Shown one piece after another: positions 30,257-36,333 of a stretch of DNA of 64,000 nucleotides (position 1 is the stretch's first letter; the number at the start of each line of letters is the position of its first letter). The notes below the pieces were generated by a model. The model was not told where the DNA came from. It saw nothing but the letters and a program-made list of their open reading frames with translations, and ran no database searches. The stretch spans positions 62,001 through 126,000 of the forward strand of contig JANWYH010000006.1 of assembly GCA_025054715.1 (NCBI GenBank). Direction: 5' to 3'. Made by a program: the position numbers and the translations under genes. The DNA comes from Pyrinomonadaceae bacterium (GTDB taxonomy: Bacteria > Acidobacteriota > Blastocatellia > Pyrinomonadales > Pyrinomonadaceae).

Positions 30257-30837
30257 AGCTCAAGAAACCCTCGCAAAAGTCTTTCACCAACACTGCCAGA
30301 TTTTTCGGGATGAAACTGAACTGCATAAAAATTCTCACGCTCAAGCGCAGCCGAAAATTTTACATCATAATCACATATTGCAGTTGTATCCTTGCCAACA
30401 TCAACGTAAAAGCTATGAACAAAGTAAAAAAACTCGCCTTCTCTTACGTAACTAAAGAGTTTCCCCTTCAAATCAAAAATCTGATTCCACCCGATATGAG
30501 GAACCTTTACATTACTTGAGCTAAACTTGCGAACTTTATACGGAAAAATTCCCAAACATTCTGTCTCATTTTCTTCAGAAAAATCGCAAAGAAGCTGCAT
30601 TCCTAGACAGATGCCGAGAAAAGGCTTGTTGATAGAACTAATAACCACTTCCAAATTTTTTTGTCTTAGATATCGCATGGCATTTGAAGCCTCTCCGACA
30701 CCTGGAAAAATTACTTTATCAGCTGAAATAATCTCTTCAGGACTATCAGTTAAAACAGGCTTTACACCCAGTCTTTCAAGTGCATTTTTTACTGATTCAG
30801 TATTACCGGCATTGTATTTTATGATTGCGACTTTCAT
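30253..30837 (-). CDS. hisH: imidazole glycerol phosphate synthase glutaminase subunit HisH
   Basis: Class I glutamine amidotransferase of 194 residues that feeds ammonia to HisF. Triad: Cys in [11 protein letters not shown], His and Glu in [10 protein letters not shown]. The N-terminal [14 protein letters not shown] is the family opening. It overlaps hisB by 4 bases upstream and hisA by 4 bases downstream, so the whole run is translationally coupled. Confidence 0.97.
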
Positions 30838-31934
30838 AAGGTTTCTTTTGTGCTTGGCAAGATCTCACTGTTTTCCCGACGAACTGCCATTTTGACTGCC
30901 CTTGCAAAAGCCTTGAAGATAGCCTCAATCTTGTGATGTTCGTTAATTCCTTCAGCCTTAATGTTAAGATTGCATTTTGCATTGTCGGAAAAAGACTTGA
31001 AAAAGTGAAAGAACATTTCCGTCGGCATCTTGCCTATCATCTCTCTTCTGAAATCTGCTTCCCATACAAGCCAGCTTCTTCCCCCAAAATCCACCGCAAC
31101 CCGAGCTAAACAATCATCCATTGGTAAGCAAAAACCATATCGATTCATCCCCCTTTTGTTTTTCAAAGCGATTGCAAAGGCCTCTCCTAAAGTTATTGCG
31201 ACATCCTCAATTGTGTGATGCTCATCTACCTCGAGATCACCAACCGCTTGAATTCTTAGATCAATCTGACCATGCTTTGCAACTTGTTCCAAAAGATGAT
31301 CAAAAAAAGCAATCCCGGTTGAAATGTTTGCCTTACCCTCTCCATCCATGTTTATTTCCACTAAAACCTCAGTTTCACGCGTCTTTCGATAATGCCTGAC
31401 TACTCGCTCAGATGATTTCAGATATTCGTAAACTTCTTTCCAACTTGCAGCTATAAAGACTTCTTTCTCGTTACAGGAAAAATTTTCATTAGCAATAAAA
31501 ATTGCTTTTGAGCCGAGATTTTTCGCAAGCTCGACATCTGTTTCCCTATCGCCTATGACATAGGAGTTCTCTAAATCATAAAAATCTGAGAAAAACTCCG
31601 TCAGCATTCCAACGTGCGGTTTTCTAGTTGCTTTATTCTCATGCGGAAAACTTCGGTCAATGAAAACTTTTGAAAAACTAATCCCTTCGCCTTCGAGAAG
31701 CTGCAAAAGAAAATTGTGGACTGGAAAAAACTTCTCTTCTGGGAAAAGCTCTGTCCCTAGTCCGTCTTGATTCGTGACCATAACGAGCTCATAATCAAAC
31801 TCACGTGCAATTTTGCCAAGGTAAGTGATAACACCTGGTAAAAACCGCAATTTTTCAAAGGAATCAACCTGAAAATCTGCTGGCTCATAAATCAAAGTTC
31901 CGTCTCTATCAATGAATAAAACCCGTTTTCTCAT
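30834..31934 (-). CDS. hisB: bifunctional histidinol-phosphatase/imidazoleglycerol-phosphate dehydratase HisB
   Basis: Two-domain enzyme of 366 residues. The HAD-type histidinol phosphatase half ([36 protein letters not shown]) precedes the dehydratase half with its paired metal motifs [12 protein letters not shown] and [14 protein letters not shown]. In the phosphatase part the usual zinc-loop cysteines are not evident ([15 protein letters not shown]). Fused HisB is typical of Gammaproteobacteria and Bacteroidetes, so this operon may have been acquired from such a source; this is inference. Overlaps both neighbours by 4 bases. Confidence 0.96.
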
Positions 31935-34279
31935 AAATCCAACCTCCTTAAAGCCTCAACAAGCGCTTTGTTTTCTTGCTCAGTGCCAACCGTTATTCTC
32001 AAACAATTCTGGCACTCGCTGCTTCTATTTCTCACAACTATTCCCTCCTGAAGCAAGAATCTATAAACAGCTTCAGCGTCCTTAAATCTTACGAGAATGA
32101 AGTTAGCTTCTGATGGAAAAACTGTCTCAACACAAGAAATTTGCCGAAGCTGATAGCTTAACCACTCTCTCTGCCTAATGATTTCATTCGTCATTTCATC
32201 AACTACTTTTCTATTTTGTAAGGCCTGAAGAAGAAGCTCCTGAGAAGGTTGTGAGATGTTATAGGGTGGCTTTACTTTGTTAAGAAGCTCGATAACTCGA
32301 GCATCGGCAAAAGCCATGCCTACGCGAAGACCCGCTAGCCCCCATGCCTTTGAAAAAGTGCGAAGAACAACTAGATTCTTGAACGTTCGAATCTCTGAAA
32401 TCAAGGACTTTCGAGTTGAAAACTCGGCATAAGCTTCATCTACGATGACAAGCCCTTCAAATTCACTTGCAAGCTGAAGAATCTCCTGAGAAGAAAAAGC
32501 ATTACCTGTTGGATTATTTGGAGAACAAATAAAAATCAGTTTCGTATCAGGAAAGAACTGATTTCGTATGCCTTTTATATCTAGCTCAAAATCGTCTGTT
32601 AAAGGCACTTTTCTGACTTTAACTTCGTTTATCCTTGCCAAAACTTCGTACATACCGTAAGTTGGCGGGCAAATTATCACGGCATCCCTTTGAGGATGAC
32701 AAAATATACGAAGCAAAAGGTCTATAACTTCATCGCTCCCATTTCCTAGAAAAATTTCCCCAGGTTCAACTGCTTGCATCTGAGCGATTTTTCCTTTAAC
32801 GTCAAGCTGCAACGGATCAGGATAACGATTGTAAGCAGGTAGAATTGGCGAGCCAAAGCTATTTTCGTTTGCATCCAAAAGAATGTGCGTCTTCAAGTTA
32901 AACTCCGATCTAGCACTTGAGTAAGGCTTCAGATTCTTTACATTTTCGCGAACCAGTCTTTCAAGTGAAAAACTTTTTGCTGAACTAAAGTCTCTGCCGA
33001 TCCTTTCTAAACGAACAGAAACAGCTCTTTTGTGGCCATCTAGTTTTTCGGCTTCTGCCATTGTTTCAATGACTGGACCGATAACTTTTAGCCCCTCAGC
33101 GGTAATCTTTTGAAAAGTTATTTTCTTAACAAAGCTATCAACCGATACTCCGCCCATAACCCTAGCATATCCACCCGTCGGCAAAGTGTGATTAGTTCCC
33201 GAAGCATAATCACCTGCAGATTCACAAGAATAGTTACCTATGAAAACTGAACCAGCCGAAATTACTCTTTCAGCCACCTGCTCAGCGTCTTTGGTAGCTA
33301 TGATAAGATGTTCTGCGGCATACTCGTTAAGAAAATCAATTGCCTTATCCAAACATTCAAACAAAACTGCCCTTGAATTCTGTAAAGCTTTTACGGCTAT
33401 GTTTTTTCTCGGTAAAAGCTGTAGCTGTTTTTCTATCTCTGAAAAAACCTCGTTTACTAAACTTTCACTCAAAGAGACTAATAAGACTTGGCTATCTGGG
33501 CCATGTTCAGCTTGTGACAGCAAGTCTGCAGCAACAAATGAAGCAACGGCCGAATCATCAGCTAAAATTGCAACCTCCGACGGACCTGCCGGCATATCAA
33601 TCTCGACTCCAAATCTAACTACCTGCCGCTTCGCTTCTGTAACAAATTGATTACCAGGTCCAAAAATTTTATAAACTTTCGGAATAGTCTCCGTTCCGAA
33701 AGCCATAGCAGCTATTGCTTGTGCACCCCCAACTTTGAAAACATTTTCGATACCGCAAAGCCTTGCTGCATAAAGTGTCGCCGGCTCAATTTCACCTTTA
33801 GAATCTGCCGGCGAACAAAGGACTATTTGCTTACAACCGGCGATTTTCGCAGGAATTGCAAGCATTAACACAGTTGAAAATAAAGGCGCACTTCCGGCAG
33901 GCACGTAAAGGCCTACCCTTTCTATCGGAACGGAGCGACGCCAGCAGAAAACACCCGGCATCGTCTCGATGACCTTTGTTGCTTCAACCTGAGCTAAATG
34001 AAACGCCTCTATATTCCTTCTAGCAACTCCTATGGCTTGTTTCAGCTTTTCTGAGACTTTCTTCTCAGCTTTCAAAAACTCATCTTCCGAAACTTTGATC
34101 GAATTTAACTTACGCCCCTCAAATCTTAAGGTTAAGCGCTCAAGAGCTTTATCACCCTCTCTTTTCACTTCTTCCAAAACTTCAGCTATCTTCGATTCGA
34201 AATCCGCAGTTTCAGACGATGGCCTTTTAACTATTTCTTGCCAGCAATCTACCTCAGGATAACGAATTAACCGCATCAT
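31931..34279 (-). CDS. hisD: fused histidinol dehydrogenase-histidinol-phosphate aminotransferase (HisD-HisC)
   Basis: One 782-residue reading frame carries two complete enzymes. Residues 1 to about 430 are HisD ([47 protein letters not shown], catalytic Glu323-His324 in [10 protein letters not shown], and [15 protein letters not shown]). From about 440 HisC follows ([46 protein letters not shown] Lys644 in [11 protein letters not shown], and the C-terminal Arg region NCLRITVG). No stop or plausible start separates them; the linker is [19 protein letters not shown]. The protein would catalyse the seventh and the last two steps of histidine synthesis. ATG at 34279 or 34276. Confidence 0.96.
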
Positions 34280-34283
34280 AAAC

Positions 34284-35144
34284 TCACCTTATCATCTGAT
34301 CTATGGAAATAACTAAAATTCCTTCCGCACCTTCGTTTTTAAGTTTTTCAACTACCTCCCAAAAATCTTCTGCCGCTATTACAGAATGAACTGAGCTCCA
34401 ACCCGGCTTTGCAAGCGGCATTACTGTCGGACTTTTCATTCCGGGAATTAGCCGGCAAACACTTTCAAGCTTATCGTTCGGAACATTCAAGAGTATGTAC
34501 TTATTCTCCTTTGCTTGCCTTACAGCTCGAATCCTAAAAATCAATTTTTCTAGGATTTTACACAAAAAATTATCCATATCGGCTCGAGCGATCATCACAG
34601 CTTCCGAATTCATAACAACTTCAACTTCCTTCAGCCCATTAGTAAAAAGAGTGCTGCCTGAGCTCACTAGATCACAAACAGCGTCGGCGAGACCTATTGA
34701 TGGAGCAATCTCGACAGAACCGCTGATCGTATGAATTTCTGCCTCGATTTCTTTCATTCTAAGAAATCGATCGAGAATTCTCGGATAAGTCGTGGCAATC
34801 CGCTTTCCTTGAAGATCAAGGATCGACTCATAACTAAAGGTCTTTGGAACAGCTATCGAGAGACGACATCTGCCAAATCCCAACTTTTCGACAACTTTTA
34901 TTCTTTTATCGCTCTTTTCTGCTAAAACGTTTTCTCCTACAATCCCAGCATCGGCAACACCATCGGCTACATACTCCGGAATGTCATCATCCCGAAGGAA
35001 AAAAATCTCAAGTGGAAAATTTTCAGCTTCAGATTTCAATTTTCCGAAACCATTACTAAAATAGATCCCGCAGTCTCTCAGAAGCTCCGCAGAAGGCTCA
35101 CTTAGCCTACCAGACTTCTGCAATGCCATTTTTAGTTTTCTCAT
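34284..35144 (-). CDS. hisG: ATP phosphoribosyltransferase HisG (long form)
   Basis: First enzyme of histidine synthesis, 286 residues, so the long form with a C-terminal regulatory domain (PGMKSPTVMPLAKPGWSSVHSV, VVEKLKNEGAEGILVISIDQMI) that binds histidine. The catalytic part has KMALQKSGRL, ADAGIVGENVL and the PRPP loop (ADAVCDLVSSGSTLFTNGL). GGAG lies 10 bases before the ATG, inside the loop of a small AATTTC/GAAATT hairpin. It heads the operon behind a histidine-rich leader peptide. Confidence 0.96.
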   Translation of the reverse strand: MRKLKMALQKSGRLSEPSAELLRDCGIYFSNGFGKLKSEAENFPLEIFFLRDDDIPEYVADGVADAGIVGENVLAEKSDKRIKVVEKLGFGRCRLSIAVPKTFSYESILDLQGKRIATTYPRILDRFLRMKEIEAEIHTISGSVEIAPSIGLADAVCDLVSSGSTLFTNGLKEVEVVMNSEAVMIARADMDNFLCKILEKLIFRIRAVRQAKENKYILLNVPNDKLESVCRLIPGMKSPTVMPLAKPGWSSVHSVIAAEDFWEVVEKLKNEGAEGILVISIDQMIR

Positions 35145-35213
35145 AGACGAATTTCTCCGATGAAATTTTTTGGAAAAAATGAATTGATTTTTAGGAAAGC
35201 CAAGAACCGATGC

Positions 35214-35239
35214 TCACGCGCCTTTTACAAGCGCGTGAT
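35214..35239 (-). promoter_or_regulatory. hairpin of the his leader region
   Basis: CACGCGC and GCGCGTG pair around TTGTAAAAG, overlapping the last His codon and the stop codon of the leader peptide. No T-run follows, so it is more likely a pause or competing hairpin than the terminator itself. The downstream 65 bases hold a second small hairpin around the hisG ribosome site. Confidence 0.55.
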
Positions 35240-35282
35240 GATGAAAGTGGGCGTGAAACCTGGAAATTTGAAGGTTTAACAT
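35214..35282 (-). CDS. histidine-operon leader peptide
   Basis: A 22-codon frame ending 69 bases before hisG (start ATG at 35280-35282, TGA at 35214-35216). Its middle reads Phe-His-Ala-His-Phe-His-His-His, that is five His codons (CAC, CAC, CAT, CAT, CAC) within seven residues, which is what a his attenuator peptide needs. The last His codon begins the 5' arm of a GC-rich hairpin (CACGCGC with GCGCGTG, 9-base loop) whose 3' arm ends at the stop codon. Ribosome stalling at the His codons would open it. There is no strong Shine-Dalgarno. Confidence 0.75.
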   Translation of the reverse strand: MLNLQISRFHAHFHHHALVKGA

Positions 35283-35291
35283 TTGTTTTTA

Positions 35292-35319
35292 TCTTTACAC
35301 ACTAAAGAAAGTTTTTCAA
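35292..35319 (-). promoter_or_regulatory. candidate promoter of the his operon
   Basis: On the minus strand: -35 TTGAAA, 16-base spacer, -10 TAAAGA, placed just upstream of the leader peptide ATG. The -35 is good and the -10 poor. It is the best candidate in the short gap behind the YpdA gene. Confidence 0.35.
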
Positions 35320-35334
35320 GTCCTCAAAAACTTT

Positions 35335-36333
35335 TTAGATTGATTTGCATAAAGACAAACTTTCTGCAATTTTTGGCAAAATTCTTCTCGGCACTTTTAT
35401 TGCACCAGCAATGTGCTTTTCTTCGGTAAAATGCCCTGCAACATAAACACCCGGAATGTTGGTTTCAAACGTTTCCTCGTCGTAAACTGGCACCTCGCCA
35501 TACTTCGGATTTTTTGAAGGGCGCATTCTAACACCTAACCTTTTTAGAAGGGTCAAATCAGCTTCTGCTCCGATAAGAACGAAAACAAAATCATTCTCAA
35601 AGGCATAAACCACGCCGTCCTCACCCTCCAAAACAACTTCCTCATTGCGAATCTCAACCACCCTCTTTAGGAAAAAAACCTGAAGACAGCCTCTTTCTAA
35701 CTGCTCCTGAAGTGGCTGTTTTACCCAATACTTTATGCAACCTTTCTTCGGATCAGTATTCTCCCAATCTTCTCGAAAAATGGCTAAAGTCGTCTCGGCA
35801 CCTTCCTGTGCTAAAAAAAGCGCAGCTTCTCCGGCAGAATTCCCACCACCTACGACCATTACCTTTTTTCTAACAAAAGGATATGTTTCACGAAAAGTAT
35901 GATAAACCTTCGGTAAATCTTCACCCGGAACACCTAAACGCTTAGGATGCTCCATGGCTCCTATTGCAAAAAGCACTTTGCGCGTAAAATATTCCCCCCG
36001 AGTCGTCTTAACCGAAAAGACTTCATCCGAAAGTCTTTCAACCTCTTCAACTTTCTCTTCTGTGTTTATTCTTAATCCTTTCTCCAAAACGAAACGAACA
36101 TAGTAAGACAAAAGCTCCTCTCTTGTTGGCTTTTCACGAATGGGTTTTAACTGCCCTTCTATAAGCTCAAGTTCATTAGGAGTAGAGAAAACCGTAAGCC
36201 CTATCGGATAATTATAAATCGTATTTGCAATCAAACCCTTTTCGATAACTAGATAATCAAGCCCTAATTTCTGAGCTTCCCATGCTGCTGATATTCCAGC
36301 CGGACCTGCACCTACAATTATTAAATCAAACAT
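35335..36333 (-). CDS. ypdA: YpdA-like FAD-dependent disulfide reductase
   Basis: Flavoprotein of 332 residues close to YpdA (Bdr), the NADPH-dependent bacillithiol disulfide reductase. FAD site GAGPAG (residues 8-13), NADP site VVGGGNSAGEAA and C-terminal FAD contact GVYVAGHFTEEKHIAGAIK. It lacks the CxxC of thioredoxin reductases; YpdA-type enzymes use a single Cys instead. Last gene of a four-gene operon with a glycosylase, YgfZ and a small protein. Bacillithiol synthesis genes (bshA, bshB, bshC) are not in the window. Confidence 0.85.
   Translation of the reverse strand: MFDLIIVGAGPAGISAAWEAQKLGLDYLVIEKGLIANTIYNYPIGLTVFSTPNELELIEGQLKPIREKPTREELLSYYVRFVLEKGLRINTEEKVEEVERLSDEVFSVKTTRGEYFTRKVLFAIGAMEHPKRLGVPGEDLPKVYHTFRETYPFVRKKVMVVGGGNSAGEAALFLAQEGAETTLAIFREDWENTDPKKGCIKYWVKQPLQEQLERGCLQVFFLKRVVEIRNEEVVLEGEDGVVYAFENDFVFVLIGAEADLTLLKRLGVRMRPSKNPKYGEVPVYDEETFETNIPGVYVAGHFTEEKHIAGAIKVPRRILPKIAESLSLCKSI

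Follow-up and report, generated by a model that had tools for sequence, protein, structure and literature searches.

Does the short histidine-rich frame that precedes hisG in this Pyrinomonadaceae genome (2.45 Mb) belong to a histidine attenuator and, if so, could that attenuator still work? The window, meaning here the whole 64-kb stretch of DNA that was analysed, carries on its minus strand an operon with the order hisG-hisDC-hisB (Table 1), whose first gene acts in the histidine pathway, as in attenuators that sense this amino acid. Directly upstream of the leader lies a YpdA-like gene, the end of which is 52 nt before the leader start.

Table 1. Features of the hisG leader region and its surroundings (window coordinates)
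Feature	Coordinates	Strand	Remarks
YpdA-like putative bacillithiol disulfide reductase	35335-36333	minus	score under the family's curated cut-off
Putative promoter	35291..35319	minus	TTGAAA 35319-35314, TAAAGAT 35297-35291; from the leader alignment; position conserved in 28/29
His-rich leader ORF	35214..35282	minus	MLNLQISRFHAHFHHHALVKGA; ATG at 35282, TGA 35216-35214; homologous leader in 28/28 family relatives
Five-His codon cluster	35235..35255	minus	codons 10, 12, 14, 15 and 16
Hairpin UCACGCGC...GCGCGUGA, attenuator region 1:2	35214..35238	minus	-16.3 kcal/mol, z -5.8; counterpart in most relatives
Leader-hisG spacer	35145..35213	minus	without the terminator and antiterminator arm seen at the same place in relatives
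Shine-Dalgarno-like GGAG of hisG	35155..35158	minus	10 nt upstream of the ATG; absent from the last 20 nt in all family relatives
Weak hairpin AAUUUC-AUCGGA-GAAAUU around the hisG Shine-Dalgarno	35150..35167	minus	-2.1 kcal/mol
hisG, long form, ATP phosphoribosyltransferase	34284..35144	minus	TIGR00070 and TIGR03455; NCBIfam hisG, E 5.5e-56
hisD-hisC fusion, operon gene 2	31931..34279	minus	TIGR00069 residues 32-423, TIGR01141 residues 444-779
Bifunctional hisB, operon gene 3	30834..31934	minus	NF003937, E 4.6e-154

A histidine-rich leader upstream of hisG

The initial annotation had drawn attention to a frame of 22 codons before hisG, in which five His fall within a stretch of seven residues, and this description holds. 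The frame (35282..35214, minus strand) consists of 22 codons and a TGA, contains the stretch HAHFHHH and stops 69 nt from the hisG start. When the spacer was shuffled 5000 times with its dinucleotides preserved, no short frame reached even four His within seven residues, and in the 64-kb window, on both strands, the leader is the sole short ORF with at least four His in seven residues. A cluster of codons for the amino acid that the operon produces, predicted to be translated, thus lies directly 5' of that operon, which is a hallmark of attenuators.

Conservation among relatives had been named beforehand as the way to check this frame, and its lack as the outcome that would speak against it. 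When hisG relatives were drawn from the family and from named genomes, and their upstream DNA was scanned for short His-rich frames, a His-rich leader appeared upstream of hisG, at a similar distance, in all 28 other Pyrinomonadaceae with readable upstream DNA (for example, MKFTTANNLHHHHAHHHHHRVN and MKFFAGNQIHHHHHAEHRVN, and, with a GTG start, VFRFLSIFRHHHHHAVEKRFA in the same-genus genome G001), and non-conservation is excluded by that result. The idea that the frame is a product of chance with no function could appeal to the interrupted run of His codons and to the lack of a terminator in the window, but against the shuffles and the homologous frames in 28 of 28 relatives it is hardly credible, and it was rejected on the conservation within the family. 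The frame is, as far as comparison of sequences can tell, a leader-peptide gene of the histidine-sensing attenuator type, common to the relatives.

Outside the family, and with a threshold of three or more His per eight residues, a His-rich leader is found in 63 of 71 loci of the Bacteroidota/Ignavibacteriota/Chlorobiota type (e.g., MIKHTHNHHHFLLPTSRL), and in neither of two more distant class-level relatives, L011 and L012. In L012, which belongs to the same class and another family, a short frame recognised by eye as similar to TrpR-type repressors (containing LAERWKAARLLAEGVPYTQIIEQTGLSSTTVARVARW) directly precedes hisG, and a HisR-type repressor may perhaps act there instead of attenuation. 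A quick maximum-likelihood tree built from 103 HisG sequences unites the family in one clade (SH-aLRT 99) amid sequences that are otherwise from Bacteroidota and their allies, with the window adjoining G001; the Bacteroidota hisG genes are the closest outside Acidobacteriota. This suggests that the operon and its attenuator may have been transferred together; with the weak backbone support and the midpoint root of the tree, it goes no further than a suggestion.

Terminators and antiterminators in the relatives and in the window

Insertions and deletions are numerous among the leaders, for which reason terminators and pairings were scored in each sequence against its own shuffles; RNAalifold on the alignment of the 29 leaders returned no structure. 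In 25 of the 28 family members and 62 of the 63 other loci, the stretch that separates the leader stop from hisG holds a hairpin that reaches -6 kcal/mol or better and has a U-tract behind it; the medians are -9.7 and -14.8, whereas shuffles average -2.4 and -1.8, respectively. This scoring misses some cases (three of the 28 relatives stay above -6, and unusual terminator types would escape it). The terminator sequences vary by lineage (beginning with GGGCUUACC, ACCCCGA or GAACCUUGA) while the hairpin persists, as would be expected if selection acted on structure. In G001, for instance, the terminator is GAACCUUGAAAUUUUCAAGGUUU followed by UUUUGUUU. The window scores 0, and an independent scan of 35050-35400 found no terminator-like site on either strand; the remark that no obvious U-tract terminator exists here is borne out, and the cryptic terminator that had been offered as one possible mechanism did not turn up by either approach.

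The second element, the antiterminator, follows the same distribution. In the relatives, the sequence around the leader stop has its pairing partner further downstream, in an arm that shares bases with the 5' side of the terminator, as in G001, where UUCGCGUGAGCUGG pairs with CUAGCUCAUUGCGAA (-22.3 kcal/mol, z -3.5) and covers GCGAACCTTG of the terminator. The pairing is evident in many of them, with a mean z of -1.6 in the family and -2.0 in Bacteroidota and some members individually non-significant, and pair types vary at the paired positions while pairing is kept, in a table that was built from energy-optimised pairings and leans towards structure. The best pairing in the window (-8.5 kcal/mol, z +0.2) is no better than in shuffles. 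Because leaders, terminators and antiterminator pairing occur across the relatives, what the Pyrinomonadaceae carry is, by all these predictions, a transcription attenuator of the classical His-codon type, placed before a Bacteroidota-like hisG. The proposal of a His attenuator thus stands as regards the conserved leader and the relatives with both structures, and not as regards the window, which lacks the two; since it fails on these two defining elements, it is best called a terminator-less derivative.

What the window does have is hairpin 1:2, a perfect and GC-rich hairpin of 25 nt that overlaps the last His codon (35237-35235), as had been annotated, as well as the leader stop codon, so that a hairpin lies over the control codons as in classical attenuators. 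Could it be the terminator itself? As a terminator without U-tract, it would be melted by a ribosome stalled at His codons 14-16, and transcription would pass; its stability (Table 1) and its overlap with both the last His codon and the leader stop are in favour of this, but only 2 T are found among the 8 bases after it, and its position in the family is that of the 1:2 protector hairpin. Moreover, G001 carries an equally strong hairpin (-16.9 kcal/mol) together with a normal terminator, and for that reason hairpin 1:2 is probably not a substitute, which leaves this explanation very improbable.

Two further observations concern the first leader codons. At 35256-35277 (minus strand) they form a weak hairpin, AAACCUUCAAAUUUCCAGGUUU, and the opposite strand of this segment resembles the family terminator and its flank (GGGCGTGAAACC...TTTGTTTTTATC), with the top score of 29 and one relative close to it. 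A small inversion of a terminator-like stretch at the leader start is only a possibility.

Predicted promoter position and transcription start

No strict match to a sigma-70 promoter is found upstream of the leader in the scan of 35050-35400; the window TTGAAA and TAAAGAT align with a putative promoter element conserved in the family. In 28 of the 29 family genomes (7% in shuffles), its first part, NTTG[CA], is located 34-46 nt upstream of the leader start; the second part is A/T-rich and stops a few bases short of that start. A Shine-Dalgarno-like motif precedes the leader in only 1 of 29 family members. Of the 63 Bacteroidota loci, 56 have a box of the TAnnTTTG type no more than 40 nt from the leader start (11% in shuffles), and this box mostly begins 12-18 nt upstream of that start. 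Since a box of this type sits at -12 to -5 in Flavobacterium (PMC9723704), transcription there would start 0-6 nt before the leader AUG. From motif positions we likewise infer a start near 35285 in the window, and the leader gene is probably leaderless or nearly so. Predicted starts at the leader AUG, or a few bases before it, in two phyla suggest that the sensing gene is perhaps translated from a (nearly) leaderless mRNA.

Proposed mechanism and state of the window attenuator

In the relatives, a promoter would start transcription of the leader at its AUG or a few bases before it. When charged His-tRNA is scarce, a ribosome waiting at the His codons would cover arm 1, and arm 2 (around the leader stop) would then pair with arm 3 and block the terminator, so that hisG would be transcribed; when histidine is plentiful, the ribosome at the stop would cover arm 2, the terminator would form and transcription would end just before hisG. 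The window has kept the putative promoter, the leader ORF and hairpin 1:2 but has neither arm 3 nor the terminator any more, and a Shine-Dalgarno-like sequence stands at the hisG start instead. Lacking arm 3 and the terminator, the classical switch would be unable to work there as drawn.

The reading that we favour, with a probability of roughly 0.75, is that the window attenuator has been dismantled, hisG being expressed without attenuation, or has been rewired to a signal that is not visible in the sequence. The shorter spacer of the window (69 nt versus 88 nt in G001) fits a deletion. On the other side, an intact frame of 22 codons with five His and no terminator suggests either a very recent loss or a continuing function, and counts against dismantling; with one genome of the window species and one congener, a loss cannot be dated and polymorphism is invisible. 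That the leader still senses histidine after losing the terminator, through Rho or a transcription pause, with the sensor kept and the output changed, is unlikely, albeit realistic. If true, the output would have changed in the course of evolution, in a lineage where the congener retains the terminator-based form. The window species and G001, without and with a terminator, make a natural pair for attenuator loss or rewiring.

What else could the spacer do? It folds no better than its own shuffles (z +0.8) and contains 14 C versus 9 G, with 12 YC steps in 69 nt, which is dense for the family. Such a composition is what Rho control would use: a leader ribosome that finishes and leaves would expose the C-rich, unstructured stretch behind the stop, where Rho would terminate, and with scarce histidine the ribosome stalled at the His codons, or a changed RNA fold, would prevent it. 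Rho is encoded in the genome (TIGR00767, 723 bits) and the leader frame is intact, so that, together with the unstructured, C-rich spacer, this kind of control stays in play. Nevertheless, the terminator-bearing family members also have C-rich spacers, comparative support is nil and Rho sites are not confidently recognisable from sequence, and we consider Rho control distinctly unlikely.

The hisG ribosome site offers another candidate output. Among the 29 family genomes, only the window has a Shine-Dalgarno-like motif, GGAG, within 20 nt of hisG, at the place that the U-tract occupies in the relatives, and this GGAG is enclosed by a hairpin of 6 pairs; in translational attenuation, the leader ribosome would decide whether the site is folded away. 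This control through the small hairpin had been the other mechanism put forward in the initial annotation, and it found no support. The hairpin is weak, with 12 of 200 shuffles equally good, and the best pairing between leader stop and spacer touches the GGAG but does not stand out from shuffles (z +0.2, as above). Ribosome masks were used to fold the leader RNA in seven states, with no ribosome, with one stalled at each of the His codons in turn, and with one at the stop. In all of them, the GGAG had a predicted openness between 0.24 and 0.33, i.e., the folding model gives no ribosome-dependent change in access to the hisG ribosome site. Translational attenuation is thus improbable, and a dismantled or rewired attenuator remains the preferred reading.

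Relation to known attenuators

The window has no match to the Rfam family RF00514 (His_leader) at the gathering threshold, and ten related loci have none down to E 5; the Rfam matches seen in these related loci, nearly all to miRNA families, were under their gathering scores and were taken as chance. Shared with the Proteobacterial hisL (RF00514) are a short leader peptide with a His cluster directly before hisG and a hairpin over the His codons, to which the relatives, and not the window, add the antiterminator and the terminator. Apart from the missing Rfam match, the differences are that the leader here is predicted to be nearly leaderless and that the window lacks terminator and antiterminator. 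In Firmicutes, His-leader attenuators are known from the Bacillus cereus group, Peptostreptococcaceae and Erysipelotrichales (PMC9413887) and, for hisZ/hisS*, from bacilli (PMC2965389). Those leaders, from independent lineages, have 3-5 consecutive His codons and an antiterminator and terminator before his genes, whereas the present case belongs to another phylum, has other sequences and sits on a Bacteroidota-like hisG-hisDC-hisB operon in Acidobacteriota.

Clues to leader-peptide attenuation have been described upstream of amino-acid operons of Flavobacterium (PMC9723704), and the Bacteroidota loci found here have hisG leaders and terminators of that kind. Unlike them, the attenuator of the Acidobacteriota has arms (CGCGTGAACTAAT / ATTAGTT...CGCG) and a promoter of its own, and the window has no terminator. 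The comparative attenuator study of Vitreschak et al. 2004 reportedly also names Bacteroidetes/Chlorobi. In translational attenuators in general, the terminator is replaced by a structure that masks the ribosome site (PMC9413887); the window resembles them in having a Shine-Dalgarno-like sequence where the relatives have the U-tract, and departs from them in that the model shows no ribosome-dependent change in accessibility. The literature searched contained no earlier report of a His leader attenuator in Acidobacteriota, and the family is a new occurrence of an already known attenuator type.

Leaders of other amino-acid pathways

Upstream of trpE, no convincing trp leader was seen in six genomes. 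Regarding branched-chain amino acids, the window genome yielded neither leuA nor ilvB of the family type, acetolactate synthase (TIGR00118) has no match in it or in its congener G001, and the matches to 2-isopropylmalate synthase are weak in both, while two other family members have both enzymes; the synthesis of branched-chain amino acids has possibly been lost in the genus of these two genomes. In other Pyrinomonadaceae, two loci (L138 and L139, from G020 and G023) have Ile/Val-rich leader frames upstream of ilvB, ending in LSSVIILSIVINVIIT and FLPSVIIISINFNVIILGG; a terminator-like hairpin and its T-tract come after each of them, and a branched-chain amino-acid attenuator is likely there.
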